From Bacteroidota bacterium (GTDB lineage: Bacteria; Bacteroidota; Ignavibacteria; Kryptoniales; JAKASW01): a stretch of 64,000 nucleotides of DNA. The stretch is taken from positions 1 through 64,000 of the forward strand of contig JAJZVO010000004.1 of assembly GCA_021845665.1 (NCBI GenBank). The letters run 5' to 3'. This document shows positions 22,035-39,249 of the stretch, one piece after another. The position numbers and the translations under genes were made by a program. The stretch's first letter is position 1. Every line of letters starts with the position of its first letter. The notes below the pieces were generated by a model. The model had not been told where the DNA came from and searched no databases. It worked only from the letters and a program-made list of their open reading frames with translations.

Positions 22035-23621
22035 TTACTTACCTTCCTTATTCGGAAGAAAGCTGAAGTTCAATCGGAGTGTATCTCCAGGTTTCACGTC
22101 GAGGGACTTAACGATATCCTGAAAAGCCGGATTGTGAATTCGAATGCGTCGCGTGCCGGCAGAAACTACGATCGGCTGCGCGGAGGGGGTGGTCTCGCGG
22201 AATTGGTCGTCCACATAGACGTTTCCCCATGGCTCGACACTCACCAACAAATATCCTGAGCTCTTGAGGAAATTTGCGTCCACAATAGAAAGATTGTCCT
22301 TTGTGACATCGACCTGTTTTACAATCGGGGCAAAATTGGGATTGCTGAACGTCACGGTGTGATCTCCGGTCGGGATTTTTATGGAGCCCGAAATTGGAGT
22401 TGTGCCGGCATACTCATTATCGATGAATATTTTTGCCCATGGAGTGCAGTGAATCGCGATGTAACCGGAATCAGTTATCGAGTCTGTTACGCGCGCCGCT
22501 GTGCCGAGGGCAACTTCAGACGTGTCCGCGGCCGCCGACGGGATCGTTTTTCTTCCGGGCTCGGGTTTTCGATAAATCCCCTGAGACATTTCAGCAGGCA
22601 CTCGCGCAAATTCTCCTGGAGCATGTCGAGGTTTCAGAAGGACAGTCGAAGCAGTATCCTTGTGCGCTGCAGTCGAGTCGGCGATGTCCGATACGGCTTT
22701 CATTGCCGGCCGCCTTAATGCAAATACGATCCCGGCGATTAAGATGAGGCCGATCGCCCCCGGTATCAGAATCCGTCTTCTCATCGGTCCGGCAGGCAAT
22801 GCAGGGGAAAGAGTCGGCTCGTTCTCTTCACCTTCAAAAGAAGCGAGCGCTTCGTTCGCCGAGGCAAAGCGGTTATGTTTGTCGGGAGCGAGAAGCCGCT
22901 TCAGAAACTCTAAAGTATGAAGAGAGCATTGAGAGGCGAATCGGTCTATGGACCGCGCATCGAAAGACTGGATTTTGCTGATGCATTCTGCATACGACCT
23001 TCCCGCGAGTATCTTTTCACCTGTCAAAGTTTCCACCAGCGTGACGCCGAGTGAAAAGAGATCTGTCCTCTGATCGACCGTTTCCCCTCTGGCCTGCTCA
23101 GGCGACATGTACGCCGGGGTACCTATCAGACTTCCCTCCATCGTGAGAGACGGCGCATCTGAAACTGCGGCGAGTCCAAAATCGGTAACTTTTATGGTCC
23201 GGTCATCGGAAACGAGGATGTTTCCCGGTTTGATATCGCGGTGAATGACGCCTCTGTCATGCGCGTAGGAAAGCGCCTTCAGAACGGACAACGCGACTCG
23301 CTTCATGAGTTCTTCCGAACGAACATCCTTGTTCTGCAAGAGGTCTTCCAGTGATTTCCCCTCGACATATTCCATGACGATGGCCGGGGATCCTTCCACC
23401 TCCGTGAGGTCATAGACCTGCACGATGTTTTCGGATTTGAGAATGGCACACGCCTTGGCCTCACGTGAGAAACGGGCCACGAGATCCTTGTCCCGCAAAA
23501 GGTGCTTATGAAGTACTTTTAGAAGAACCGTCCTGTCAAGGATATTCTGGTGAGCCTTGTAGACGCTTGTGGTCGGGCTCTGGCTGATGAGTTCCAGTAT
23601 GGTGAAGTTATCTTGAGCCAT
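22035..23621 (-). CDS. Membrane Ser/Thr protein kinase with two PEGA domains
   Basis: A 528-residue Hanks-type kinase with all key residues: K35 (LLKVL), E54, HRD 127-129, N134, DFG 147-149 and SPE 173-175. The glycine loop is weak (SQSPTTSVYK). A transmembrane helix lies at about 285-305. Outside it are a linker and two PEGA beta-sandwiches (about 395-460 and 465-525: CTPWAKIFIDNEYAGTTP and VEPWGNVYVDDQF), which commonly bind surface or cell-wall ligands. Its start overlaps the stop of the sigma54-activator gene by 14 bases. It could phosphorylate that activator or another partner in response to an envelope signal. Confidence 0.92.
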   Translation of the reverse strand: MAQDNFTILELISQSPTTSVYKAHQNILDRTVLLKVLHKHLLRDKDLVARFSREAKACAILKSENIVQVYDLTEVEGSPAIVMEYVEGKSLEDLLQNKDVRSEELMKRVALSVLKALSYAHDRGVIHRDIKPGNILVSDDRTIKVTDFGLAAVSDAPSLTMEGSLIGTPAYMSPEQARGETVDQRTDLFSLGVTLVETLTGEKILAGRSYAECISKIQSFDARSIDRFASQCSLHTLEFLKRLLAPDKHNRFASANEALASFEGEENEPTLSPALPAGPMRRRILIPGAIGLILIAGIVFALRRPAMKAVSDIADSTAAHKDTASTVLLKPRHAPGEFARVPAEMSQGIYRKPEPGRKTIPSAAADTSEVALGTAARVTDSITDSGYIAIHCTPWAKIFIDNEYAGTTPISGSIKIPTGDHTVTFSNPNFAPIVKQVDVTKDNLSIVDANFLKSSGYLLVSVEPWGNVYVDDQFRETTPSAQPIVVSAGTRRIRIHNPAFQDIVKSLDVKPGDTLRLNFSFLPNKEGK

Positions 23622-25110
23622 TCGAAGTATCCTTCGGGACTCCCCATTCTTTCAAACGGTACTGAAGCCAGCGAAGAGAGACTCCGAGCTTTTCGGCAGT
23701 CCGTGTACGGTTGCCTCCGGTCTCGTTTAGAGTCCTTTCGACGAGTTTCCTTTCAAATTCCTCAAGTGTTAGCCCGGTCTGAAGCAATTCCTCCTCCGAG
23801 TACTGTTCAAGCTTCAGGTCCTCTTCCGCAAGCTCCTCCGAGCGGGAGAGAACCACGGCGCGCTCGATGACGTTCTGCAGCTCCCTTACATTGCCGTACC
23901 ATGGATGGCTCAACAGTTTCGACATTGCGACAGATGAAATGCGCTTTACATTCCGGCCGTGAGTATCGTCGGCTTTTTTCACAAAATGGTTTGCCAGAAC
24001 TGGTATGTCGTCCGCTCTGTCCCGTAATGGCGGGAGATGGATTCCAACAATGTTCAGTCTGAAATAAAGATCCTCTCTGAATCTTCCTGCCTTGATTTCT
24101 TCATGTAGTTTCTTGTTGGTCGCAGAGATTATCCGTACGTCTACTTTCAGTGTCTCGAGGTCACCCAGCCTACGGATTTCCTTGTCCTGGAGCACTCTCA
24201 GTAGTTTTGCCTGGAGAGGAGCTGGCAGGTCGCCGACTTCATCCAGAAAGAGAGTTCCTCCATCGGCGTGCTCGATCAATCCTTTCTTGTCCGCGTTTGC
24301 GCCCGTGAATGCACCCTTCTTATAACCGAAGAGCTCGCTTTCCAGGAGCTGCTCGGGGATAGCGGAGCAATTGATCGCCATGAAATGTTTGTCTCTCCGC
24401 TTTCCCTGGTTGTGGATGGCACGTGCTATCAGTTCCTTTCCCGTACCGCTCTCGCCGGTTATCAGGACGGACACATCGGTGTCGATCACGCGCTGGACGA
24501 GATCGAGAGCCGCCTCCCACTGCTTGCTCTTGCCTATTATACCCTGGAAAAGGCTCGCGCTGCTGATCTCGCTCTGGAGACGCGTATTCTCGCTTTTAAG
24601 TCTGGCGTAGCGTTTTGCGTTCTCGACGGCCACAGCGGCCAGGTTGCCGAAGACTGCCAGAAATTTCATTGTATCGGTAGTGAACATTCCGCGAGACTTG
24701 GTGCTATCAAGATAGATCGCACCTATAGTCTCCTCTTGGAGTCTGAGAGGGACGCAGATTATGGAGAGAATCTTTTGGGCGACGATGCTTCTCGATGCTT
24801 CGAAACGTTCGTCGCTTAGCGCATCGAATGTCAGAACCGGCTCGCCCGACTTCAAGACATTGTTGATCACGGAGGAAGATGCGGCGGATTCGATTGCGTC
24901 TTTCGGACTGCTGAAGTTCCTGTAGACGACGACGCTGAAGCCACGCTGGTCGGATTCGTCCATCATAACGATGTATCCGCGTTCGGCATCCAGATGGGAC
25001 ATCGCATTTTCCAGGACTCGCTCCAGAAGTTCCTCTTCATCGAGGATAGAGTTGATCCGTTGAGCTATTTCGTAGAGGACTGTGAAATTATCTTTTTGTG
25101 GCTCGGTCAT
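23608..25110 (-). CDS. Sigma54-dependent activator with GAF domain
   Basis: A 500-residue bacterial enhancer-binding protein: N-terminal GAF domain (about residues 15-165), AAA+ domain with Walker A GESGTGKE (219-226), the sigma54-contact loop GAFTGA (266-271), Walker B GGTLFLDE (284-291) and arginine fingers in LYFRLN, and a C-terminal Fis-type HTH (about 450-492). It should remodel RNA polymerase-sigma54 at target promoters. No receiver domain is present, so control probably comes through the GAF domain or through phosphorylation by the kinase encoded next. It is separated from the preceding lipoprotein gene by 10 bp. Confidence 0.95.
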   Translation of the reverse strand: MTEPQKDNFTVLYEIAQRINSILDEEELLERVLENAMSHLDAERGYIVMMDESDQRGFSVVVYRNFSSPKDAIESAASSSVINNVLKSGEPVLTFDALSDERFEASRSIVAQKILSIICVPLRLQEETIGAIYLDSTKSRGMFTTDTMKFLAVFGNLAAVAVENAKRYARLKSENTRLQSEISSASLFQGIIGKSKQWEAALDLVQRVIDTDVSVLITGESGTGKELIARAIHNQGKRRDKHFMAINCSAIPEQLLESELFGYKKGAFTGANADKKGLIEHADGGTLFLDEVGDLPAPLQAKLLRVLQDKEIRRLGDLETLKVDVRIISATNKKLHEEIKAGRFREDLYFRLNIVGIHLPPLRDRADDIPVLANHFVKKADDTHGRNVKRISSVAMSKLLSHPWYGNVRELQNVIERAVVLSRSEELAEEDLKLEQYSEEELLQTGLTLEEFERKLVERTLNETGGNRTRTAEKLGVSLRWLQYRLKEWGVPKDTSNGSR

Positions 25111-28980: not shown

Positions 28981-29009
28981 ACCCGTCCAAGATGGATCCT
29001 TGGACGGGT
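28981..29009 (-). terminator. Strong terminator after flagellin
   Basis: ACCCGTCCAAG (28981-28991) and CTTGGACGGGT (28999-29009) form an 11-bp perfect stem with a 7-base loop. On the minus strand it is followed by a run of eight T. It lies 14 bp past the flagellin stop. Confidence 0.93.
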
Positions 29010-29022
29010 TTCCACAAGCCGA

Positions 29023-29850
29023 TTACGGGAAGAGCTTCAGGATGCCGCCGGGTTGTGCATTTGCCTGTGCCAATTGAACCGTAGCGGTTTGTTCCAGTAT
29101 CTGGAGCTGAGTCGCCTGGACCTGGACCTGAGCGATGTTTGCATCCATTATCTGGCTCGCTGCCGCCTGAGTATTGGTTATAGACGTTTGCAGAACCTGC
29201 TGCTTGAAGCTAAGCCGGGACTCGAGAGAACCGACGTACTGCAATTGCGAAGTTACCGTGTTGATGGCATTGTCGACGCTGGTGAGCGCGTTCGCGATGT
29301 TCGTGGTGCTGAGACCTGTGAGACCCAGCGCTGACGAGTCGATCGCGGTAGACAACGAAACCGACAAGGTGTCTCCGCTATCGGCGCCCACCTGGAAGGT
29401 CTTGCCTGTAAACACGTTATTCAGCAGCTGCTGGCCGTTAAACTTGGTCTCCGTTATCGTCTGACCAATTTCATTCAGGTAATCATTGGCCTGGGTGACA
29501 ATGGCGCCGAGTTCCGAAGAACCTAGTCCGGCGTTGCCTGCTTCCGTCACGAGGGTCTTGATGTTTACGAGAATGTTGTTGACAGCCTGAAGACCGCCTT
29601 CAGCGGTGGAGAGAACGCTTTGTGCGTCCCCAACGTTCGTTAAAGCCTGGCTCAACCCCGCAGCCCTGGCGTTAAGCTTTGTGCCGATGGTGTACCCGGC
29701 AGGATCAACGCCGACGCTGTTGATTCGCTTGCCGGTAGCCAGCTGCAGCTCAGCCTGGTTCAGCTGCTGGTTGATGTTGTCCAACGCATTGTACGCGTTC
29801 TGCGCGCTGATGTTAGTCGCAATGCGGAACCCCGATGTGAAATCGGACAT
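29023..29850 (-). CDS. fliC: Flagellin
   Basis: A 275-residue flagellin. The conserved N-terminal helix has NISAQNAYNALDNINQQL and LATGKRINSVGVDPAGY (about residues 12-55), and the C-terminal helix has ASQIMDANIAQVQVQATQLQILEQTA read in part, ending in GILKLFP. The central variable region is short (about residues 140-200), so the filament surface is small. GGAGG lies ten bases before the ATG. Transcription very likely starts from the sigma28-like promoter at 30072-30098, giving a leader of about 220 bases, and ends at the hairpin at 28981-29009. Confidence 0.96.
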   Translation of the reverse strand: MSDFTSGFRIATNISAQNAYNALDNINQQLNQAELQLATGKRINSVGVDPAGYTIGTKLNARAAGLSQALTNVGDAQSVLSTAEGGLQAVNNILVNIKTLVTEAGNAGLGSSELGAIVTQANDYLNEIGQTITETKFNGQQLLNNVFTGKTFQVGADSGDTLSVSLSTAIDSSALGLTGLSTTNIANALTSVDNAINTVTSQLQYVGSLESRLSFKQQVLQTSITNTQAAASQIMDANIAQVQVQATQLQILEQTATVQLAQANAQPGGILKLFP

Positions 29851-30071
29851 GGTACTATACCTCCATGTTGTTTTTTTTGAGCGACGTCCATGCCGCCCGT
29901 TAAAATCCGCAGGTCCTTTTCCATCGGACTCAAGTCCGACCGGATGAGTACGGGACCTCCGGCTAGAGGAGTTATTAGTTCAAGGCCGACCGGCGGCTCT
30001 CCTCTCGCCGCCGCTCCCGCGAGCCCAAGCTTCTGAGGCTTTTTCCGGCTCACGAGCGTGCCTTAACAGTA
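29851..30071 (-). promoter_or_regulatory. Long structured 5' leader of flagellin mRNA
   Basis: Between the sigma28-like promoter and the flagellin start lie several inverted repeats: AGGTCC/GGACCT (29911-29916/29953-29958) enclosing TCGGACT/AGTCCGA (29924-29930/29933-29939), CGGCGGC/GCCGCCG (29991-29997/30007-30013) and GAGCC/GGCTC (30021-30025/30047-30051). The region is GC-rich and has no convincing coding frame. It could be a regulatory leader or stabilise the mRNA. It does not show the GEMM c-di-GMP riboswitch core that I know. Confidence 0.55.
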
Positions 30072-30098
30072 CTATCGGAAGACGCCACCGGAACTTTA
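30072..30098 (-). promoter_or_regulatory. Sigma28 (FliA)-type promoter of flagellin
   Basis: On the minus strand TAAA (30098-30095) is separated by exactly 15 bases from TCCGATAG (30079-30072), matching the sigma28 consensus TAAA-N15-GCCGATAA at 10 of 12 positions. It points at flagellin, 222 bases downstream. The presence of FlgM in the same cluster supports sigma28 use. Confidence 0.75.
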
Positions 30099-30146: not shown

Positions 30147-31136
30147 TCAGACCTTGAGCAGTTCCTTGCAGGCCCTGATGAGGTGTTCGAGCTGAATATC
30201 CAGCCTTAGATTGCTCCCGCCATTCTCGCGGATTCTAAGGAGCATCTGGTACCCGTCGGTTATTTTGTTCATCGAAAGGAGGCCGAATGCCGCTACGTAC
30301 ATCGCTATACCGTTTGAAGCATTGTAGTCGAGGCACCGGCGAGCATACATCACCGCATTATCGTTCTCATTCCTTTCAAGCGCGACCTGGGACATTTTCA
30401 TAAACAGTCTTTCAAGAATCTCACTCCCCATCCCGGCATAGTCGAGGGTGAGGACTCTCTTCATTTCTGCGTACGCTTCTTCCTTCCGTCCCATGCTCAT
30501 TAACGTCACGCCGGTCTGGTAATGTAAATACGGATCATCGTCCGAACGCGAGAGGGCATGCCGAAGTATCGCGAGATTTCTCTCTCCCCTATCCTCAGCC
30601 CCCTGGACAGTTTTCCTGGAGTAGCCGTGATGGACGATCATCAGATCGGATCTCTCGATCTTTCCGCCATTCTGCTCGATGCTTCCCCTGATTTGCTCGT
30701 GGACCGGCATCGTGTACCTGTAATTCTTCCGGTTCCTGAAAAGCCTTACTATCATCATGTCTTCATATTTCAGCACATCCGTCTCGGGCATCTCACTGCG
30801 AACGACCATTTCGACGCCGTCCGCTTGCGATGTCTTGATAAAGTCGCGCATCTTCTCTCTCGACAGTCGACTCAATTCCTCGTCGGCATCGAGGACGAGT
30901 ATCCAATTCCCGGCCGCCGATTCAAGAGATAGATTTCTCGCCGCGGAAAAATCATTCTCCCATGAGTGAAACACTACCCTGGCTCCGTGCCTTCTGGCAA
31001 TTTCAACGGTCGAATCGGTCGAGCCTGTATCGACAATTATCATCTCGTTCGCTACGCCGTCTACGCTTTTCAAACACGCGTCGAGATATTCTTCTTCGTT
31101 CCTGACTATCATGCAAAGCGATACACCGATCTGCAT
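30147..31136 (-). CDS. GT2 glycosyltransferase with TPR tail, next to flagellin
   Basis: A 329-residue protein: an N-terminal GT-A fold of the SunS/GT2 type (SLCMIVRNEEEYL, IVDTGSTDSTVEIAR, ENDFSAARN, VLDADEEL with the metal-binding DxD) and, from about residue 195, helical repeats (YLHYQTGVTLMSMGRKEEAYAEM in part). ATG 31136 has GGAGG nine bases upstream and is preferred over 31145. Glycosyltransferases of this shape near flagellin genes often glycosylate flagellin; that substrate is inferred from location only. It lies about 50 bp upstream of the flagellin promoter and runs the same way. Confidence 0.85.
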   Translation of the reverse strand: MQIGVSLCMIVRNEEEYLDACLKSVDGVANEMIIVDTGSTDSTVEIARRHGARVVFHSWENDFSAARNLSLESAAGNWILVLDADEELSRLSREKMRDFIKTSQADGVEMVVRSEMPETDVLKYEDMMIVRLFRNRKNYRYTMPVHEQIRGSIEQNGGKIERSDLMIVHHGYSRKTVQGAEDRGERNLAILRHALSRSDDDPYLHYQTGVTLMSMGRKEEAYAEMKRVLTLDYAGMGSEILERLFMKMSQVALERNENDNAVMYARRCLDYNASNGIAMYVAAFGLLSMNKITDGYQMLLRIRENGGSNLRLDIQLEHLIRACKELLKV

Positions 31137-31179
31137 CCGAATCATCCTCCGATTTTGCCGACAAAGCCCCTATGCGGGA

Positions 31180-34100
31180 TCACATCGGCCTGAACCTGGT
31201 GATGGTATCCGATTCGAGAGGACGAAGCGAAATGTAGTCCACTCCTTCGGATTTTTCCTCCCCTTCCCTGTTGGTAAGGAGGACGGTAGTGCAATCCGGG
31301 TTCGCCTTCTTCAGCTGGCCGCAAAGTTCTCTTCCATTTATCGAGGGAAGACTCAGGTCGACGAAAGCGACGCTGAATTTCTCAGTCCGGAAGAGTTTCG
31401 CGGCTTCGACGGCATCGCCCGCGACCTTGAGCCGGGGAAATACCAGCAAAATATTCCGTGATTCCTCCTCGACAAGATGCTTGTCGTCTTCCACGAGGAG
31501 CGCGGAGATCACACCTGCATTCGCACCTTCGGCCGGCCTCGATTCAAAGATTTCAAATGTCATCACGTTGGCCTGCACATCGGCTTCTACTGTATAACCA
31601 AGCTTTTCGATTTTTCCGACGAGCGCTCTTATACTTGCGCTACCTTCTATTTGCTCCTGATCTACCGTCTCATTTTCCGCTCCGGTAAGTCTCAGCCCCA
31701 CCCGCTTCCCTTTCCCTTCCGCCGCGTCACCCGGGCCGGGCTGGGAAGTTGCGGCGAGCACATCGCATTCCTTCAAGCCGGAAACCAGAACGACATTCGA
31801 CAGGAGATCACGGAGAAGATCGAACGTAGACTGATCGACCCTGAATTCTGCGAGCGATGAAGTCTCAAAGCTTTTTATCCTGGTCGGTGTCTTTACCGAA
31901 CCGGTCCCAGCCGAATTAATTAATGCGGTTCTGACGGCCTCAAACAGTTCGTCCTGACGCTTTGATGAGCTGTCGAGGTCAACCGACATTTCCTTTGCCG
32001 CGGCGGCAAGATGCAGGCGAATTTCCTGCAGGATTTTATCTTCGCCCTGAACGAAGGAAAGACGCGAGAGGACATTGTCAATAGCTATTCTCGCGTTCCT
32101 CAGCGAAACGGGGATATTCTCTATGGATTCACGCAGACTTGCCTGCTCTTCTTTCGCCCGGTCCAACCTGGAGCGCAAGACCGAACTCTCGGCCTGAAGT
32201 GCCGGGAGTCTCATGGCAAATATGCTTTTGATCTTGTCGACAGAGAGTCCAACCATGGTACTGGAAAGAGGGTCGCCTGCACTCTTCACCGACAACAGCC
32301 CCATGCCGACACTTGCGAAATCTGCTTCGTAGAGCCCGGAGCCCTCGCCGTCTTTCTCTACAAGCTCCATCGGTCGGCTCGCCTCAGTTTCTGCATTTCC
32401 AGGAGACAGGACCACCGATGATTCTTTCATCTTCGCAGACAAAGAGTCCGCAAGAACTTTTACGACCGCTTCGGGAGTCCCGGCTTTGGAAAGCTTCATC
32501 ATGAATTCGCTCATGATTTTTGAATTTTCCAGAAGCTGTGCCGCAATCTTCGCCTGTTCTTCGGAACTTTTCCTGCCTTCAAGCATATCCAGCGAGACGG
32601 ACGCGACTGCATTAAGCTCCGATATTGACGGTGAGACAGCGATGAACCTGAGCAAGAGCACAAGAAGCTGGCGTCTCGACTTGACCGCGAAATATAAGCC
32701 TTCGGCTCCCTTCATGTCCGGCGACTCAAGCTGGTTTGCCGGCACGAGCGCGCCGAATTTCGTCGCGGGTAAGGATAATTCTTTTGGGAGATTCCCATTA
32801 GAAATTACAAGCGACATCGCGGTTCCTACGAGAGCGTATACTCCGGCCGACTCGGCTGCAAAGACATGCCGGACCAGATCGGTCACGTGCAGGGAGTATT
32901 CGTCAAAGGAGCCATCTCCCATCCCGGTCAAGCCGACAACGGCACGCGTCACTTTTCCGCTCTCTTCAAATCTTCTCTCCGCGGACATTCGAGCGTACAA
33001 GCCTGCGGCCACAGACGATGCCGCTTTCAGGACCGGGGCGAGCTCGTCCATATACTGTGACTGAACGCCTGAGGAAGGGAAGGATATTGACGCAAACCCG
33101 AGAACGTCTCCTACCGCAGTGCTTTGCAGAAGAAGTCGCGAGTCTCCCGCCGAAACCACATTCATGAGTGTGGAATCAGGGATCTCAATCCCTGAGAAAG
33201 CCCCGCCGTGACGGGCCACAGTAACATCGCTCTCGGTAAGGCTGAGTGAAAGCGACGGTTCCATTCTGCCCGATGCCGCCGTCAGAAGGAAGACGTCTGC
33301 GGTCCCTCGCGATGTATGCAGGGTGCCTGTACCTATTACTTTGGCACCGGAATATAACTCGGCGGCAAGCAGATCGCTGAGGCTTTTGAGTATCCCTTCG
33401 AACTTGTCGGCGGAAGGGAGATCTCTCATGATCACATTCCGCCGTTTCAACTTTTCAATTTCCGCCCGCTGCCCGACTTCTTGACTGACCGGTCTGAACC
33501 TGTACACCTGAGTATTCCCGACCGGTATGTTTTCGACTTTGTAGAAACGGCCGTTCAATTCACCGGTATCCTCAGGACGGGAGATCCCGATGCCCGATAG
33601 AATCTTCGTCGGATCGATGCTTTCGTCGAGCCGTATAGAAAGTTTGTTCCTCGCCGCCACATTTGCGGCACGGACAATCCCGCTCTCGAGGACAAAAACA
33701 GGATCGTCGACAAAAGATTCAAGAAGGTTACCCAGCATACCTTGCGCGCCGCGGAGTTGCTGCTTCAGCACCTCCTGCTCCGTAATGTCTTCCAGGAAAA
33801 GGAAAGTCGCGTCTTCGGTGACTGAAGCTCTAGCGTTTAGGTACTTCCTGTCGGTAGTGCGGCACATTCGCATGACGATCTCTCCCGCACGCAGCTCCGA
33901 CTTGAAACTTTCCGGAGATTCGCCGAGGTACCTGAGGAAACCGTCGAAGCTTCTGTCGGTGGAAAGAAATTCCTTGAAGAGGCTTTCGAACATTTCGTTC
34001 CACCTGGAAAGCTTTCCGCCGCTGACGGCGGCAGTCGGGAGAAAGCTGTTGAAGAGCCTCTCCGACTCCATCGCCGACTTTCTAAGTTCTTCTTCGATCT

Positions 34101-35427
34101 TCTTAAATCCAGAAACATCCCTGAATGCATAGAAGCTTATGCCGGCGATATCCCAGTGAGCCACCGAGAAAGCCCTGCCCCGATTGTCAACCACTTCGCG
34201 ATCGCCCTCGAGGGCTGTCGGGATGACCAACCCGTTCGAGGACAAAAATTCCCCCACCTGCTGTCCTTCTTTCACATCGAACATTTCGCGCACGGGGCGG
34301 CTCAAGACGGAAACGATTCCATTTGAAACAGCCATAACCGGCAGGGCAGCACCTCGTACCGACTCCTCTGAGAATTCCCTCGCTTCACCGACACTCTTTT
34401 TTAGAGCCTCGTTCTCGGAACGGAGTGCGTCGATGGTTCGACCAAGCTCATTACGAAGCTCGATATCGGAAGTGTCGTCCGAGAGGTAGACCGCCGACAG
34501 GCCGCGCCCGCCGTCGGGTTTCTTCCTGGTCACTACATAAGTCTTGAAGTGTTTTCCGGACATCACGACGGATGTCGGGCGGCTTTCGCCTGCGCCGATT
34601 CCGACAAGAAACTCGATGAATCCCTGTCTCGCATCTTCATCCACCAGAGAGGAGAAGGATTGTCCTTGGGGCTCTACGCCAGGCCCGGCGAGGCGTGTCA
34701 GAGCCTCGTTGGCTTCAACTATTATACCACGCTCATCCAGGACCGCAGCGGCCAGCGCCATTTCATTGAAAAGATGAAGATGTGAGCTTTCTTTTTCCCG
34801 TAGTTCTCCTTTGAGCTTGACCAGTTGTTCATCGAACCGATTCTGCAGGGTTTGCAGCCGGCTCTTCACCTCCGAAAGATGGGAAGCAGCTTTGAGGAGA
34901 AACACAAATCGGCCGAGGTCTTCACGGAGTGCCGGCGGCTTTTCACGAAGGAGAAGGAGAAGCGCTAACTCGGAAGCGTCAGTCTTCACGGAAGCTGCCG
35001 CGACGAGCCCCGCTCCCAACTCCCGCTGAAGTTTCCTGCAAGCCGCCGACGTAGTCATATCGCCGAGCAATTGAAATATCTCGTCAAACTCAGTGAACTT
35101 TTCTTCGAACGCTTTCTTCCGGCCGCCGGTGAGAGGGATTTTGTCGGTGGATAGCCTGATCCCCGCGTTTTTAAAAGAGTCGGCGATCTGCTTCGGGTTG
35201 TCCGCTGAATAGGCGGTCAAAGCGGCCGTTCCTCCCGAACGACTGAAAAGGAAGGAGTGACAGTCGAATGCTTTTCCGACTGCGGACACTATCGAGCCGA
35301 CGATATTGTCCGGCCGGTCCGTGAATATTGTTTCCGAGAGCGCGGCGAAAAAAGCCTCCTGAAATCTCGCGTGGTGACTCGCCGTGTTTATCGTCTCTGA
35401 GGATTTACTCTTTTTCAGATTAAGCAT
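31180..35427 (-). CDS. Giant multi-PAS/GAF sensor-like protein with degenerate kinase and receiver
   Basis: A 1415-residue cytoplasmic protein with no transmembrane helix. By pattern: an N-terminal GAF-like domain (about 20-190), a coiled coil, several PAS-like domains (about 225-650, e.g. AAAVLDERGIIVEANEAL), several GAF-like domains (about 690-1100), a helical segment, a C-terminal ATPase-like remnant (about 1150-1290) and a receiver (about 1300-1415). The kinase region has no recognisable H-box, N-box or glycine-rich G boxes. In the receiver the acidic EDD, Asp1357 and Thr1385 are kept, but the invariant Lys is Arg1402 (SLRPL). It looks like a sensor scaffold rather than an active hybrid kinase. 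Its neighbour is an intact histidine kinase. Confidence 0.65.
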   Translation of the reverse strand: MLNLKKSKSSETINTASHHARFQEAFFAALSETIFTDRPDNIVGSIVSAVGKAFDCHSFLFSRSGGTAALTAYSADNPKQIADSFKNAGIRLSTDKIPLTGGRKKAFEEKFTEFDEIFQLLGDMTTSAACRKLQRELGAGLVAAASVKTDASELALLLLLREKPPALREDLGRFVFLLKAASHLSEVKSRLQTLQNRFDEQLVKLKGELREKESSHLHLFNEMALAAAVLDERGIIVEANEALTRLAGPGVEPQGQSFSSLVDEDARQGFIEFLVGIGAGESRPTSVVMSGKHFKTYVVTRKKPDGGRGLSAVYLSDDTSDIELRNELGRTIDALRSENEALKKSVGEAREFSEESVRGAALPVMAVSNGIVSVLSRPVREMFDVKEGQQVGEFLSSNGLVIPTALEGDREVVDNRGRAFSVAHWDIAGISFYAFRDVSGFKKIEEELRKSAMESERLFNSFLPTAAVSGGKLSRWNEMFESLFKEFLSTDRSFDGFLRYLGESPESFKSELRAGEIVMRMCRTTDRKYLNARASVTEDATFLFLEDITEQEVLKQQLRGAQGMLGNLLESFVDDPVFVLESGIVRAANVAARNKLSIRLDESIDPTKILSGIGISRPEDTGELNGRFYKVENIPVGNTQVYRFRPVSQEVGQRAEIEKLKRRNVIMRDLPSADKFEGILKSLSDLLAAELYSGAKVIGTGTLHTSRGTADVFLLTAASGRMEPSLSLSLTESDVTVARHGGAFSGIEIPDSTLMNVVSAGDSRLLLQSTAVGDVLGFASISFPSSGVQSQYMDELAPVLKAASSVAAGLYARMSAERRFEESGKVTRAVVGLTGMGDGSFDEYSLHVTDLVRHVFAAESAGVYALVGTAMSLVISNGNLPKELSLPATKFGALVPANQLESPDMKGAEGLYFAVKSRRQLLVLLLRFIAVSPSISELNAVASVSLDMLEGRKSSEEQAKIAAQLLENSKIMSEFMMKLSKAGTPEAVVKVLADSLSAKMKESSVVLSPGNAETEASRPMELVEKDGEGSGLYEADFASVGMGLLSVKSAGDPLSSTMVGLSVDKIKSIFAMRLPALQAESSVLRSRLDRAKEEQASLRESIENIPVSLRNARIAIDNVLSRLSFVQGEDKILQEIRLHLAAAAKEMSVDLDSSSKRQDELFEAVRTALINSAGTGSVKTPTRIKSFETSSLAEFRVDQSTFDLLRDLLSNVVLVSGLKECDVLAATSQPGPGDAAEGKGKRVGLRLTGAENETVDQEQIEGSASIRALVGKIEKLGYTVEADVQANVMTFEIFESRPAEGANAGVISALLVEDDKHLVEEESRNILLVFPRLKVAGDAVEAAKLFRTEKFSVAFVDLSLPSINGRELCGQLKKANPDCTTVLLTNREGEEKSEGVDYISLRPLESDTITRFRPM

Positions 35428-35500: not shown

Positions 35501-37138
35501 TCATTGCCTCGGGAGCGTGAAAAGGAAAGTCGAACCTTTTCCTTTACCTGCCGATTCGACCCAGACGGTTCCACCGCTCAGTTCGACGATTTTCTTGACA
35601 AAAGCGAGGCCCAAACCGCTCCCTTCGACTTTCTCAGTGTCGCTTGTTTTCACTCTCTGAAAGATCGCAAATATTCTCTCGTGGAATTCCTGCTGAATGC
35701 CGATTCCATTATCGCGAACATAGAAGAGATAATGATCAACTTTATCTTGTACTCCTATCGTCAATTGTGGGCTCGCCTGATCGCCCATGTATTTGATCGC
35801 ATTGTCTACCAGGTTCATGAAAATACGTTCCACGTAACGGGCAACGACATATAACTGCGGGAATGTGCCTTCAAGAGCGACGTTGACCTTCTTCTCGGCG
35901 AGCCTGATCGACATATCGTTGAGGACGCGTTCGACGAGCTGCGCCATATTGGTCTCCTCAGGAACGGCGTCGACACTTCCGACCCTCGCGAGGTCGAGGA
36001 GGTCGTTCACGAGAGAGTGCAGGCGGGCGGAAGACGTCATGATGGCGTCTATCAAGACATCCTGCTCGACTTCGAGTCGTCCGCTTCTCTTGAGTTCCCT
36101 TGCAAATCCCTCGATGACGAGTATCGGAGATTTCAGGTCGTGCGTGATGGCATAAGTAAATTGCTGGAGCTCACGATTCTTGCTTTCGAGAAGGCGGGTC
36201 TTCTGGATCGTTTCCTCGTGAAGTCTGGAGTTCTCGATCGCGGCGCCGATAACCGTGCCGATGCCTTCTATAATTTCCCGCTGGGCGCCCTCGAGCACGC
36301 GTGACGATTCGCTGAAGAGTGCGCCGACTCCGACGGCCTTTCCTTTTGCTTTCAGAGGGAATACCACCAGTGAAGCGAAGGGGGATCTTCTCATCGTGCG
36401 GGGCATCAGGACCTGGTTCTCATTCCGGCTTATGGATTCTACGGTGTCGGCCCTCAATACCTTTCCGAACACGTTAGAAGTTATCTCCGAGCCGTGGACC
36501 TCCGAAAGGAAATCCTCGCTCAGGTTAGCGCTTGCCGCAACGAAAATCCTGCGGCCCGCTTTGTCGGGAAGAAGTATGGCTCCCGCGTCTCCGGTGAAAA
36601 TGTCCATTGTCTGCCTGACCGAATACTCGAGCACCTCCCTGAAGTCTATCGTCCGGTTGAGAAGAGTGGCTATCCTATTGATTGCGCTGAGCTGAAGGTT
36701 CCTCTGAGTGAGCGTCTCCTCGAGTTTCCGACGATTCGTGACGTCGATTAATATGCCGAGAGTCCCTGCGAGTACGTTATCCTCACCGAAAAATGGGGAG
36801 GTAGAGATCTGAATGAAGAATTCCTTGCCGTCCGGTCTTTTCAGCAGAAACTCTTTCGAATCTATCGGTCTTTCGCTGGCGATGGTTTGATTAAAAGGCA
36901 GGTTGGGCGAGGCCACGGGGCGTTTCGTATTCGGATCGCAAACCCCGCTGAGGAGAAGGGCGGAATTCTTGCGAAGGTTGAGTTCTCTATCTACGCCGAA
37001 TACCTTTTCCGCCGCCCTATTCATCCCGACTATTTCCCCAAAGCGATTAGTGACTATCATCCCCTCACCGATCCCTTCAAACAGCCTCAGGAGATCCTCG
37101 GAGATGACCACTCCATTATTTTTCACATCAACGCCCAT
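35501..37138 (-). CDS. PAS-GAF sensor histidine kinase
   Basis: A 545-residue soluble kinase: PAS domain (about residues 13-138, with FGEIVGMNRAAEKVFGVD), GAF domain (about 160-305), DHp helix with phospho-acceptor His333 in YAITHDLKSP, and a HATPase domain with N446 (NLVDNAIKY), DNGIG (476-480) and GSGLGLA (507-513). All catalytic boxes are intact. It ends with LFTLPRQ, typical of the ATPase fold. It has no receiver and no partner response regulator next to it; the 1415-aa protein downstream (74 bp away, same strand) carries the only receiver, which is degenerate. It may control motility or flagellin through a distant regulator. Confidence 0.93.
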   Translation of the reverse strand: MGVDVKNNGVVISEDLLRLFEGIGEGMIVTNRFGEIVGMNRAAEKVFGVDRELNLRKNSALLLSGVCDPNTKRPVASPNLPFNQTIASERPIDSKEFLLKRPDGKEFFIQISTSPFFGEDNVLAGTLGILIDVTNRRKLEETLTQRNLQLSAINRIATLLNRTIDFREVLEYSVRQTMDIFTGDAGAILLPDKAGRRIFVAASANLSEDFLSEVHGSEITSNVFGKVLRADTVESISRNENQVLMPRTMRRSPFASLVVFPLKAKGKAVGVGALFSESSRVLEGAQREIIEGIGTVIGAAIENSRLHEETIQKTRLLESKNRELQQFTYAITHDLKSPILVIEGFARELKRSGRLEVEQDVLIDAIMTSSARLHSLVNDLLDLARVGSVDAVPEETNMAQLVERVLNDMSIRLAEKKVNVALEGTFPQLYVVARYVERIFMNLVDNAIKYMGDQASPQLTIGVQDKVDHYLFYVRDNGIGIQQEFHERIFAIFQRVKTSDTEKVEGSGLGLAFVKKIVELSGGTVWVESAGKGKGSTFLFTLPRQ

Positions 37139-37527: not shown

Positions 37528-37600
37528 GGGGCTGTAGCTCAGCTGGGAGAGCGCGTGAATGGCATTCACGAGGTCAGGGGTTCGATCCCCCTCAGCTCCA
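37528..37600 (+). tRNA. tRNA-Ala (GGC)
   Basis: A cloverleaf is readable: acceptor GGGGCTG/CAGCTCC (one G-U), D arm AGCTC...GAGC, anticodon stem CGTGA/TCACG with loop ATGGCAT (anticodon GGC), T arm with GGTTCGATCC, discriminator A. CCA is not encoded. The integrase at 37717 lies 116 bp beyond the 3' end, so this is the probable attachment site of the second island. No second copy of its 3' end was found by eye in the window. Confidence 0.95.
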
Positions 37601-37716
37601 CAAACTTTCCACCCTGCAAATCCCACCATTCGATTCCGATTCAGATTGAGACTGTACAATTTTGTGTACACTGCCTTGTCCTTTGACTTTCCTTCCGAGA
37701 GAAATGGGAGGAAATC

Positions 37717-38745
37717 ATGTTTCTTTTCAAACGACGCGGTTACTTCTACGTTGACTATTTCGATGGAGCCGAAAACCGCAGGAAACGAATCTCTACTCAT
37801 GCGACAAGGAAAGACGAAGCACTGAGATTTCTTTCCGAATTCAAAGACAGGTTAAGCGAGTCCCAAAAGCCAGACTTCATTTCCCTGTCAAGGTTTACTG
37901 AAGCATACAACCAATACGTCAAAAACCGGCACACCCCAAATTACTTCCTGACCGTCGAGCGAAGCCTTGGAGCATTGAAAGTCTTTGCCGGAGATATTCC
38001 TCTCAAGGATGCTGACCGGAGATTACTCGAATCCTTTTTCGATTCCGTTTCTGAGCGAAGCAAGAATACGTCAAACTTGTATTATTGCACACTTGCAGCG
38101 GCATTCAGCAAAGCCGTCGAATGGAATTATCTCTCAGAGAATCCGCTGAAGAAAATCAAGCTGACAAAGATTCCGAAGAGACTTCCAGTCTTCTTAACTG
38201 AACCAGAACTTAGCTCAATCCTTGAGCACACCGCAAAACCGGATATGAAGGACTTTTTCACTTTGGCATTCCATACAGGCTTGAGACTATCCGAGATTCT
38301 CAATCTCGAATGGCAGGCCGTGAACCTTGCAGAAAGAATAATGAAAGTCTCAAACACAGAGACGTTCACCACGAAGAGCAAAAAAGAGCGCATCGTTCCA
38401 CTTAACCAAACAGCCCTTGAGGTTCTAACAAAGAGACAGCCTAAAGTCTTCAACCTCGAAACAAAGAACTATGTCTTTCAGAAATATCCGGGCATTAGGT
38501 ACGAAAGAGATTTTCTCAGCAAACAATTCAAGAAAGTTGTCCGGGCCACGGGACTCAACGAAGGTTTACACTTCCACAGTCTCCGCCACTCCTTCGCGTC
38601 AAATCTCATTAAGCGTGGTATTCCAATCGTAGCAGTCAAGGAACTTTTAGGACACAGCGACATTTCCACAACCATGATTTACAGCCACGTCCGACGTGAG
38701 GACTTGGTCAATGCGGTCAAGATGTTAGAGAGAGGGGGATATTAA
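37717..38745 (+). CDS. Tyrosine recombinase / integrase of the second island
   Basis: A 342-residue integrase with N-terminal arm-binding beta strands (FKRRGYFYVDYF), core-binding domain (about 55-145) and catalytic domain with R190 (TGLRLSE), a Lys near 220, H287-x2-R290 (HSLRHSF), H313 (LGHSD) and Tyr322 (MIYSHV). GAGGAAA precedes the ATG. It is clearly related to the integrase at 3061-4092, sharing NTETFTTKSKKER. It reads away from tRNA-Ala into the island, the common layout for tRNA-targeting islands. Confidence 0.93.
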   Translation: MFLFKRRGYFYVDYFDGAENRRKRISTHATRKDEALRFLSEFKDRLSESQKPDFISLSRFTEAYNQYVKNRHTPNYFLTVERSLGALKVFAGDIPLKDADRRLLESFFDSVSERSKNTSNLYYCTLAAAFSKAVEWNYLSENPLKKIKLTKIPKRLPVFLTEPELSSILEHTAKPDMKDFFTLAFHTGLRLSEILNLEWQAVNLAERIMKVSNTETFTTKSKKERIVPLNQTALEVLTKRQPKVFNLETKNYVFQKYPGIRYERDFLSKQFKKVVRATGLNEGLHFHSLRHSFASNLIKRGIPIVAVKELLGHSDISTTMIYSHVRREDLVNAVKMLERGGY

Positions 38746-38988
38746 CCGATGTTCCGAGTTATGAACGTACTTGCAGCGATAGGAAGTGACAAAATTCAGT
38801 CGAGGAAGGCCGTTCAAAGTGCCCAAAACGCCTTCCCCGAAGGGGTCCTTCGGACAAGAATGCCCGACATCGAAGGAGAAGCTGCCGGAGATACTTCTCC
38901 CTTTCCTCATCTGATTCATCACACAACCGTTGAATTCGTCTTACAGCTGCACTACATTACTTCAGATTTAGAAAGGAAGGATAAAGTT
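38746..38988 (+). other. Non-coding gap with two hairpins after the integrase
   Basis: The frame is open here upstream of dinJ but reads as random sequence. CCGAAGG/CCTTCGG (near 38836-38852) and GGAGAAG/CTTCTCC (near 38875-38901) are inverted pairs that may terminate the integrase transcript or form part of a recombination site. Confidence 0.45.
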
Positions 38989-39249
38989 ATGGCGAAGACA
39001 GCAATGGTGCAGGCACGAATTGAGCCTGAACTGAAAAGTGAAGTTGAGAAGATACTTCGCTCACTCGGACTGAATACGACTTATGCGATAAGTGTTTTCT
39101 TCAAGCAGATAAAACTCCACAAAGGGATTCCGTTTGCCGTGGAAATTCCGAACGCAGAAACACGCAAGGCAATTGAAGACAGTCGTAAGGGAAAGAATCT
39201 TGTAAAGGTGAAGAATGCAGCCGAGCTATTCAAAGAGCTTGGCGTTTGA
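38989..39249 (+). CDS. dinJ: RelB/DinJ-family antitoxin
   Basis: An 86-residue protein with the N-terminal ribbon-helix-helix of DinJ/RelB antitoxins (VQARIEPELKSEVEKIL, then GLNTTYAISVFFKQI) and a C-terminal toxin-wrapping part (NAETRKAIEDS, AAELFKELGV). ATG 38989 is chosen because GAAAGGAAGG lies eight bases before it; the open frame upstream is not conserved-looking. It binds its own promoter and neutralises the YafQ-like toxin encoded next, whose ATG overlaps its stop. Confidence 0.92.
   Translation: MAKTAMVQARIEPELKSEVEKILRSLGLNTTYAISVFFKQIKLHKGIPFAVEIPNAETRKAIEDSRKGKNLVKVKNAAELFKELGV

Follow-up and report, generated by a model that had tools for sequence, protein, structure and literature searches.

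To our knowledge, few pseudo-histidine kinases have been studied. DivL, a dead kinase, senses a phosphorylated regulator and feeds into a second kinase, with a part played by its PAS domains (PMC4211667), and a ChrS pseudokinase heterodimerises with a live kinase (PMC9491836). Receivers with missing helices are also on record: α4 is missing or disordered in CckA, and helices are missing in the accessory receivers of RcsC and ShkA and in Sma0114 and SdrG (PMC9981736). The locus described here holds a live histidine kinase always paired with a dead hybrid one, and natural losses of the ATPase region, the receiver Asp and the C-terminus make the family a ready series for finding out what in a dead kinase remains important and if two proteins can share sensing and catalysis between them. 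The relevant genes in the window (the whole 64,000-nucleotide stretch of DNA that was analysed) are:

35501..37138, minus strand: intact PAS-GAF-HisKA-HATPase histidine kinase without a receiver (Pfam; catalytic boxes invariant; 12 of 12 genomes)
31180..35427, minus strand: 1415-residue pseudo-hybrid histidine kinase (ORF, orthologues, selection)
30147..31145, minus strand: family 2 glycosyltransferase with TPR, the next downstream gene (Pfam; conserved order)
29023..29850, minus strand: flagellin (Pfam; conserved order)

The open reading frame of the large protein starts with ATG and has the position and length (1415 aa) that the first-pass annotation gave it. Because orthologues occur in 11 other genomes and dN/dS is low, the frame is a genuine gene and purifying selection acts on it. 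Against the nearest orthologue dN/dS is 0.125 overall, 0.05 in the ATPase-like region and 0.09 in the receiver; by domain, values among close relatives range from 0.05 to 0.27, and in close pairs the values for DHp, ATPase and receiver (0.05–0.14) indicate that these parts are selected and not decaying. Among full-length members no domain is more similar than the receiver, whose mean pairwise identity is 0.715, against 0.50 over the protein as a whole. The neighbouring kinase (545 aa) is conserved more strongly than the large protein, with dN/dS of about 0.03–0.04 (two unsaturated pairs).

The N-terminal part had been described as a series of PAS/GAF-like units. In the copy of the large protein encoded in the window, Pfam detects nothing beyond the receiver (3e-8) and a PAS below threshold; PAS is recognised in 10 of 11 orthologues, with a best value of 1e-6. 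The AlphaFold2 model of the N-terminal 1075 residues (11 orthologues; mean pLDDT 75, pTM 0.30) predicts with moderate confidence eight sensor modules with helices between them (four are PAS-like, about four GAF-like), which agrees with the description. Module boundaries and PAS/GAF labels were read by eye from the AlphaFold2 secondary structure:

34948..35385, minus strand: GAF-like module 1, residues 15-160 (AlphaFold2 secondary structure)
34477..34779, minus strand: PAS-like module 1, residues 217-317 (Pfam PAS in 10 of 11 members and AlphaFold2)
34117..34338, minus strand: PAS-like module 2, residues 364-437 (AlphaFold2; conservation)
33787..34035, minus strand: PAS-like module 3, residues 465-547 (AlphaFold2)
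33487..33699, minus strand: PAS-like module 4, residues 577-647 (AlphaFold2)
33076..33402, minus strand: GAF-like module 2, residues 676-784 (AlphaFold2)
32644..32958, minus strand: GAF-like module 3, residues 824-928 (AlphaFold2)
32278..32475, minus strand: reduced GAF-like module 4, residues 985-1050 (AlphaFold2)

PAS-like module 2 is the fastest-evolving part of the large protein. Foldseek matches the array to the tandem-PAS proteins PpsR, DosP, LOV-HK and FixL and to phytochromes. Five orthologues have a hydrophobic stretch at the N-terminus that could be a membrane anchor.

The sensor array is followed by three C-terminal regions:

31903..32202, minus strand: DHp-like helical bundle without a conserved His, residues 1076-1175 (AlphaFold2, Foldseek, alignment)
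31540..31881, minus strand: degenerate GHKL ATPase-like domain without glycine boxes, residues 1183-1296 (AlphaFold2, Foldseek, alignment)
31192..31506, minus strand: α4-less receiver, residues 1308-1412; Asp1357 kept, Arg1402 in place of Lys (Pfam, alignment, AlphaFold2, spacing)

The histidine-kinase boxes, reported missing in the first-pass annotation, are indeed absent: NCBIfam is silent on residues 1084-1303, the whole protein has no kinase match and the alignment of nine orthologues contains no conserved His in residues 1060-1300. Invariant Ser1101 lies at the His position if Pro1106 is the H-box Pro, a tentative assignment made by eye. In the search for N, G1 and G2 boxes in the same alignment the glycine boxes were unrecognisable and the lid is short; Asn1211, which is invariant and by eye at the N-box position, is the sole box residue kept. 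Searching the PDB by sequence with the DHp/ATPase region returned nothing, and neither did a sequence-profile comparison of the dead with the live kinase. Structure prediction, the check proposed for this region, gives for residues 1060-1415 (9 sequences; pLDDT 77, pTM 0.43) long helices, then the strand and helix order of a GHKL ATPase and then a receiver, and Foldseek agrees with a DHp/ATPase/receiver fold. The hybrid kinase ShkA is the top match; the HK-only chains of DesK, HK853, KinB and DivL, and a phosphotransferase, match over 205–255 columns (E 1e-6 to 7e-6), so the DHp/ATPase match is independent of the receiver. These matches have a high rmsd, which makes the relative placement of the domains unreliable. 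As modelled, the large protein is a histidine-kinase fold without catalytic residues, and the phospho-His, the ATP-binding boxes and the receiver Lys of an active hybrid histidine kinase are all missing.

The receiver retains Asp1357 and Thr1385 and carries Arg1402 for Lys, as had been read from the window copy, and the orthologue alignment conserves this pattern. E1313-D1314-D1315 and D1357 are invariant in the nine full-length orthologues, eight of which have Thr at position 1385 (G004 has Val), and R1402 replaces Lys in all nine as well as in G011, i.e. in every member with a receiver. Beyond what the earlier reading saw, the receiver has by prediction lost helix α4, and its sequence has lost the β5 aromatic switch residue. 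Thr and Arg lie 17 residues apart in each of the nine full-length orthologues, whereas Thr and Lys are 22–23 apart in ten canonical receivers of related genomes; the AlphaFold2 receiver model has a short β4–β5 segment and no helix α4, and the switch position on β5, an aromatic one (Tyr/Phe), is Ile or Met. An α4-less receiver is unusual, not unique. The domain does not belong to the aspartate-less type, Asp1357 being present and replaced (by Ser) in G011 only.

Three relatives have lost C-terminal parts of the large protein. In G011 the DHp/ATPase region is gone, and in the receiver Ser replaces Asp and one acid of the pocket is lost; in G005 a natural stop follows the final GAF-like module, leaving no DHp, ATPase or receiver; and in G003 an in-frame TAA splits the first 1025 residues from the remainder. 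The kinase is intact in all three, with its catalytic residues invariant. G005 and G011 group together (tree with midpoint root), and since G011 retains the family receiver, loss is likelier than primary absence. What stays constant is thus kinase plus sensor array, while the receiver can be dispensed with; this speaks most strongly against a split phosphorelay and in favour of a sensory or allosteric role.

The large protein is present in 12 of the 13 genomes of the genus, and the neighbour is, as first described, an intact kinase without a receiver, by Pfam in the window and in all 12 of these genomes. Co-conservation of the two, another check that had been proposed, holds in every genome having either gene. 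The order kinase, large gene, glycosyltransferase is kept in 12 of 12, and flagellin comes next in 11; between kinase and large gene the distance varies from a 4-bp overlap (G004, G008) to a gap of 73 bp, and in most genomes 18–49 bp separate the large gene from the glycosyltransferase. No response regulator adjacent to the kinase was seen at the loci. The conserved kinase/pseudokinase pair is well supported. Outside the genus, 48 other relatives match the large protein at the receiver domain only, and N-terminal or DHp/ATPase profiles had no match in 293–296 genomes of the phylum (the samples overlap). A plasmid search for the large protein gave no match, and a search of a contig database for a wider family gave one relative only, of the same identity as the G012 copy. 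A sister family has flagellin and a related glycosyltransferase without the large protein or a close relative of the kinase, so the pair arose at, or moved to, the locus in this genus. A second, partial kinase/large-protein copy in G012 (L047, G012:C61) resembles G003 and not the other G012 copy, and is probably contamination of the draft genome.

Upstream of the kinase, tRNA-Ala (GGC) has an integrase gene and a RelB-like antitoxin next to it (37528-39249); as the kinase directly adjoins the tRNA in most relatives, a mobile element has probably inserted here. At 22035-25110 (minus strand) the gene of a PEGA-domain Ser/Thr protein kinase overlaps that of a GAF-type sigma-54 activator without a receiver, and both genes are near the flagellin locus in L033 and L037 too.

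The module sits in a flagellar neighbourhood. In G009, flagellin, FlhA, rod proteins, the glycosyltransferase, the kinase and the large protein were all undetected. In G008, flagellin, FlhA, rod proteins and CsrA were undetected while kinase, large protein and glycosyltransferase are kept, and the 700 bp past its glycosyltransferase (L042 13556-14264) contain no flagellin. These are draft genomes; G008, rated 100% complete in about 30 contigs, is apparently non-flagellate. A strict flagellar role was considered; as G008 keeps the module without detected flagellar genes, the flagellar link, which is one of position, may not be strict.

The flagellin leader (29851-30098, minus strand), common to eleven genomes, precedes flagellin and has in most of them a sigma-28-like site (TAAAGTTC...CCGATA) that is conserved in the alignment; the strict sigma-28 pattern was not found despite this site, and sigma-54 sites were at chance level. 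Hairpin 1 of the leader, which is specific to the genus, has a covarying stem (four pairs with double changes), and the complementarity of its GAGGAG loop to a downstream CTCCTC is nearly invariant. Hairpin 2 is GCGGC-AUGGAC-GCCGC, and the flagellin ribosome site reads AUGGAGG. The sister family shares the promoter and the second hairpin; its stem differs and the loop A[UA]GGA stays. Rfam gave no significant match for the leader. CsrA binds GGA in hairpin loops and at the ribosome site. Flagellin mRNA is under CsrA control elsewhere (PMC4894983), CsrA was found in 10 of the 13 genomes of the genus and, from its motifs, the leader looks like a candidate CsrA target. Directly 3′ of flagellin, a strong terminator-like hairpin (28981-29009, minus strand; 12 pairs and a T run) suggests that FliS and FliD are transcribed separately.

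We give an even chance to the reading that the large protein is a non-catalytic sensory or allosteric partner of the upstream histidine kinase, with a DivL-like logic. The precedents of DivL and ChrS lead to the proposal that it binds the neighbour or the neighbour's regulator and sets activity, and the losses of receiver Asp, of DHp/ATPase or of the entire C-terminus seen among G003, G005 and G011 beside an intact kinase point to a role without phosphotransfer. It would descend from a PAS/GAF hybrid kinase, with a transmitter and a receiver that have lost their normal function: the array would sense cytoplasmic signals, and coiled coils, the DHp-like bundle and the α4-less receiver would contact the kinase, or its response regulator, and so shift the kinase/phosphatase balance without phosphoryl transfer, with an output in the flagellin/glycosyltransferase locus. 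The contact, the direction of control, the signals and the output at the locus are what we infer. The first-pass annotation had suggested one split signalling complex with the large protein as scaffold or allosteric partner. A scaffold or allosteric partner suits the results, and the link to the kinase and the predicted fold stand; the stronger reading, in which the neighbour phosphorylates the receiver, is not supported, given the losses in G003, G005 and G011. Points against a sensory or allosteric partner are that co-inheritance and synteny in one genus are also expected of unrelated operon genes, that the acidic pocket and Asp are kept in nine orthologues, more than a pure scaffold needs, and that, with a dispensable C-terminus, contact may be made through parts other than those proposed.

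The invariant Asp1357 and pocket acids of nine orthologues speak for a split hybrid phosphorelay, in which the kinase phosphorylates Asp1357 and the large protein supplies the missing receiver as relay step or phosphate sink. The receiver is the best conserved domain, the kinase has neither a receiver nor an adjacent response regulator, and α4-less hybrid-kinase receivers can still relay, as in CckA (PMC9981736). We nevertheless consider it unlikely and rank a working relay below the sensory or allosteric partner: relatives lose the receiver or its Asp (Ser in G011, no receiver in G005, a stop before it in G003) and keep the kinase intact, every member has Arg for Lys, and an Ile/Met switch position with α4 missing makes switch-type output unlikely. 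Somewhat less probable again is an independent sensor or scaffold for the flagellin or glycosylation machinery that shares the operon and does not act on the kinase. The large gene is in most genomes as close to the glycosyltransferase as to the kinase, the receiver of the motility protein FrzS works without phosphorylation (PMC1974792) and the possible membrane anchor of five orthologues would fit; yet the fold is kinase-derived, in every genome the kinase adjoins the large gene, and all three genes persist in G008, where flagellar genes were undetected. Least probable is that the C-terminal half is a decaying relic and that the sensor array alone, or nothing, is functional. The C-terminus is shortened or interrupted in 3 of 12 genomes, but in close pairs dN/dS of the ATPase-like and receiver regions is 0.05–0.09 and the receiver is the best conserved domain of full-length members; a decaying gene was ranked low on the same grounds.

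An extension of the sensory or allosteric partner, which we hold only tentatively, is that the dead hybrid kinase, specific to the genus and carrying about eight sensor modules, serves a live kinase as its obligate non-enzymatic subunit. Within one signalling unit most of the sensing and all of the catalysis would be split over two proteins, and the C-terminal relic could be trimmed stepwise while sensor array and kinase stay together.

The large protein resembles several known systems in part. With the pseudo-receivers, FrzS (PMC1974792) and the aspartate-less ones (PMC4395418), it shares a receiver fold with an altered active site and no normal switch; Asp is absent there, whereas most members of this family keep Asp, with Arg for Lys and without α4. 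ChpT-type phosphotransferases also combine a DHp with a degenerate ATPase-like domain, and 4qpj and 4qpk (described as phosphotransferase with/without receiver domain) are among the Foldseek matches, but ChpT keeps the phospho-His and the large protein has no conserved His. CckA, ShkA and RcsC share the sensor-DHp-CA-receiver order, ShkA is the top Foldseek match and their receivers also lack helices (PMC9981736); the transmitter is active in those proteins, while His and glycine boxes are missing here. Caulobacter DivL, itself a Foldseek match, likewise carries PAS modules on an inactive histidine-kinase fold and modulates a second kinase, as the large protein may do. DivL has Tyr for His, has no C-terminal receiver and acts with CckA, whereas the large protein combines roughly eight sensor modules with a degenerate ATPase region and an atypical receiver, and its live kinase is encoded by the adjacent gene.
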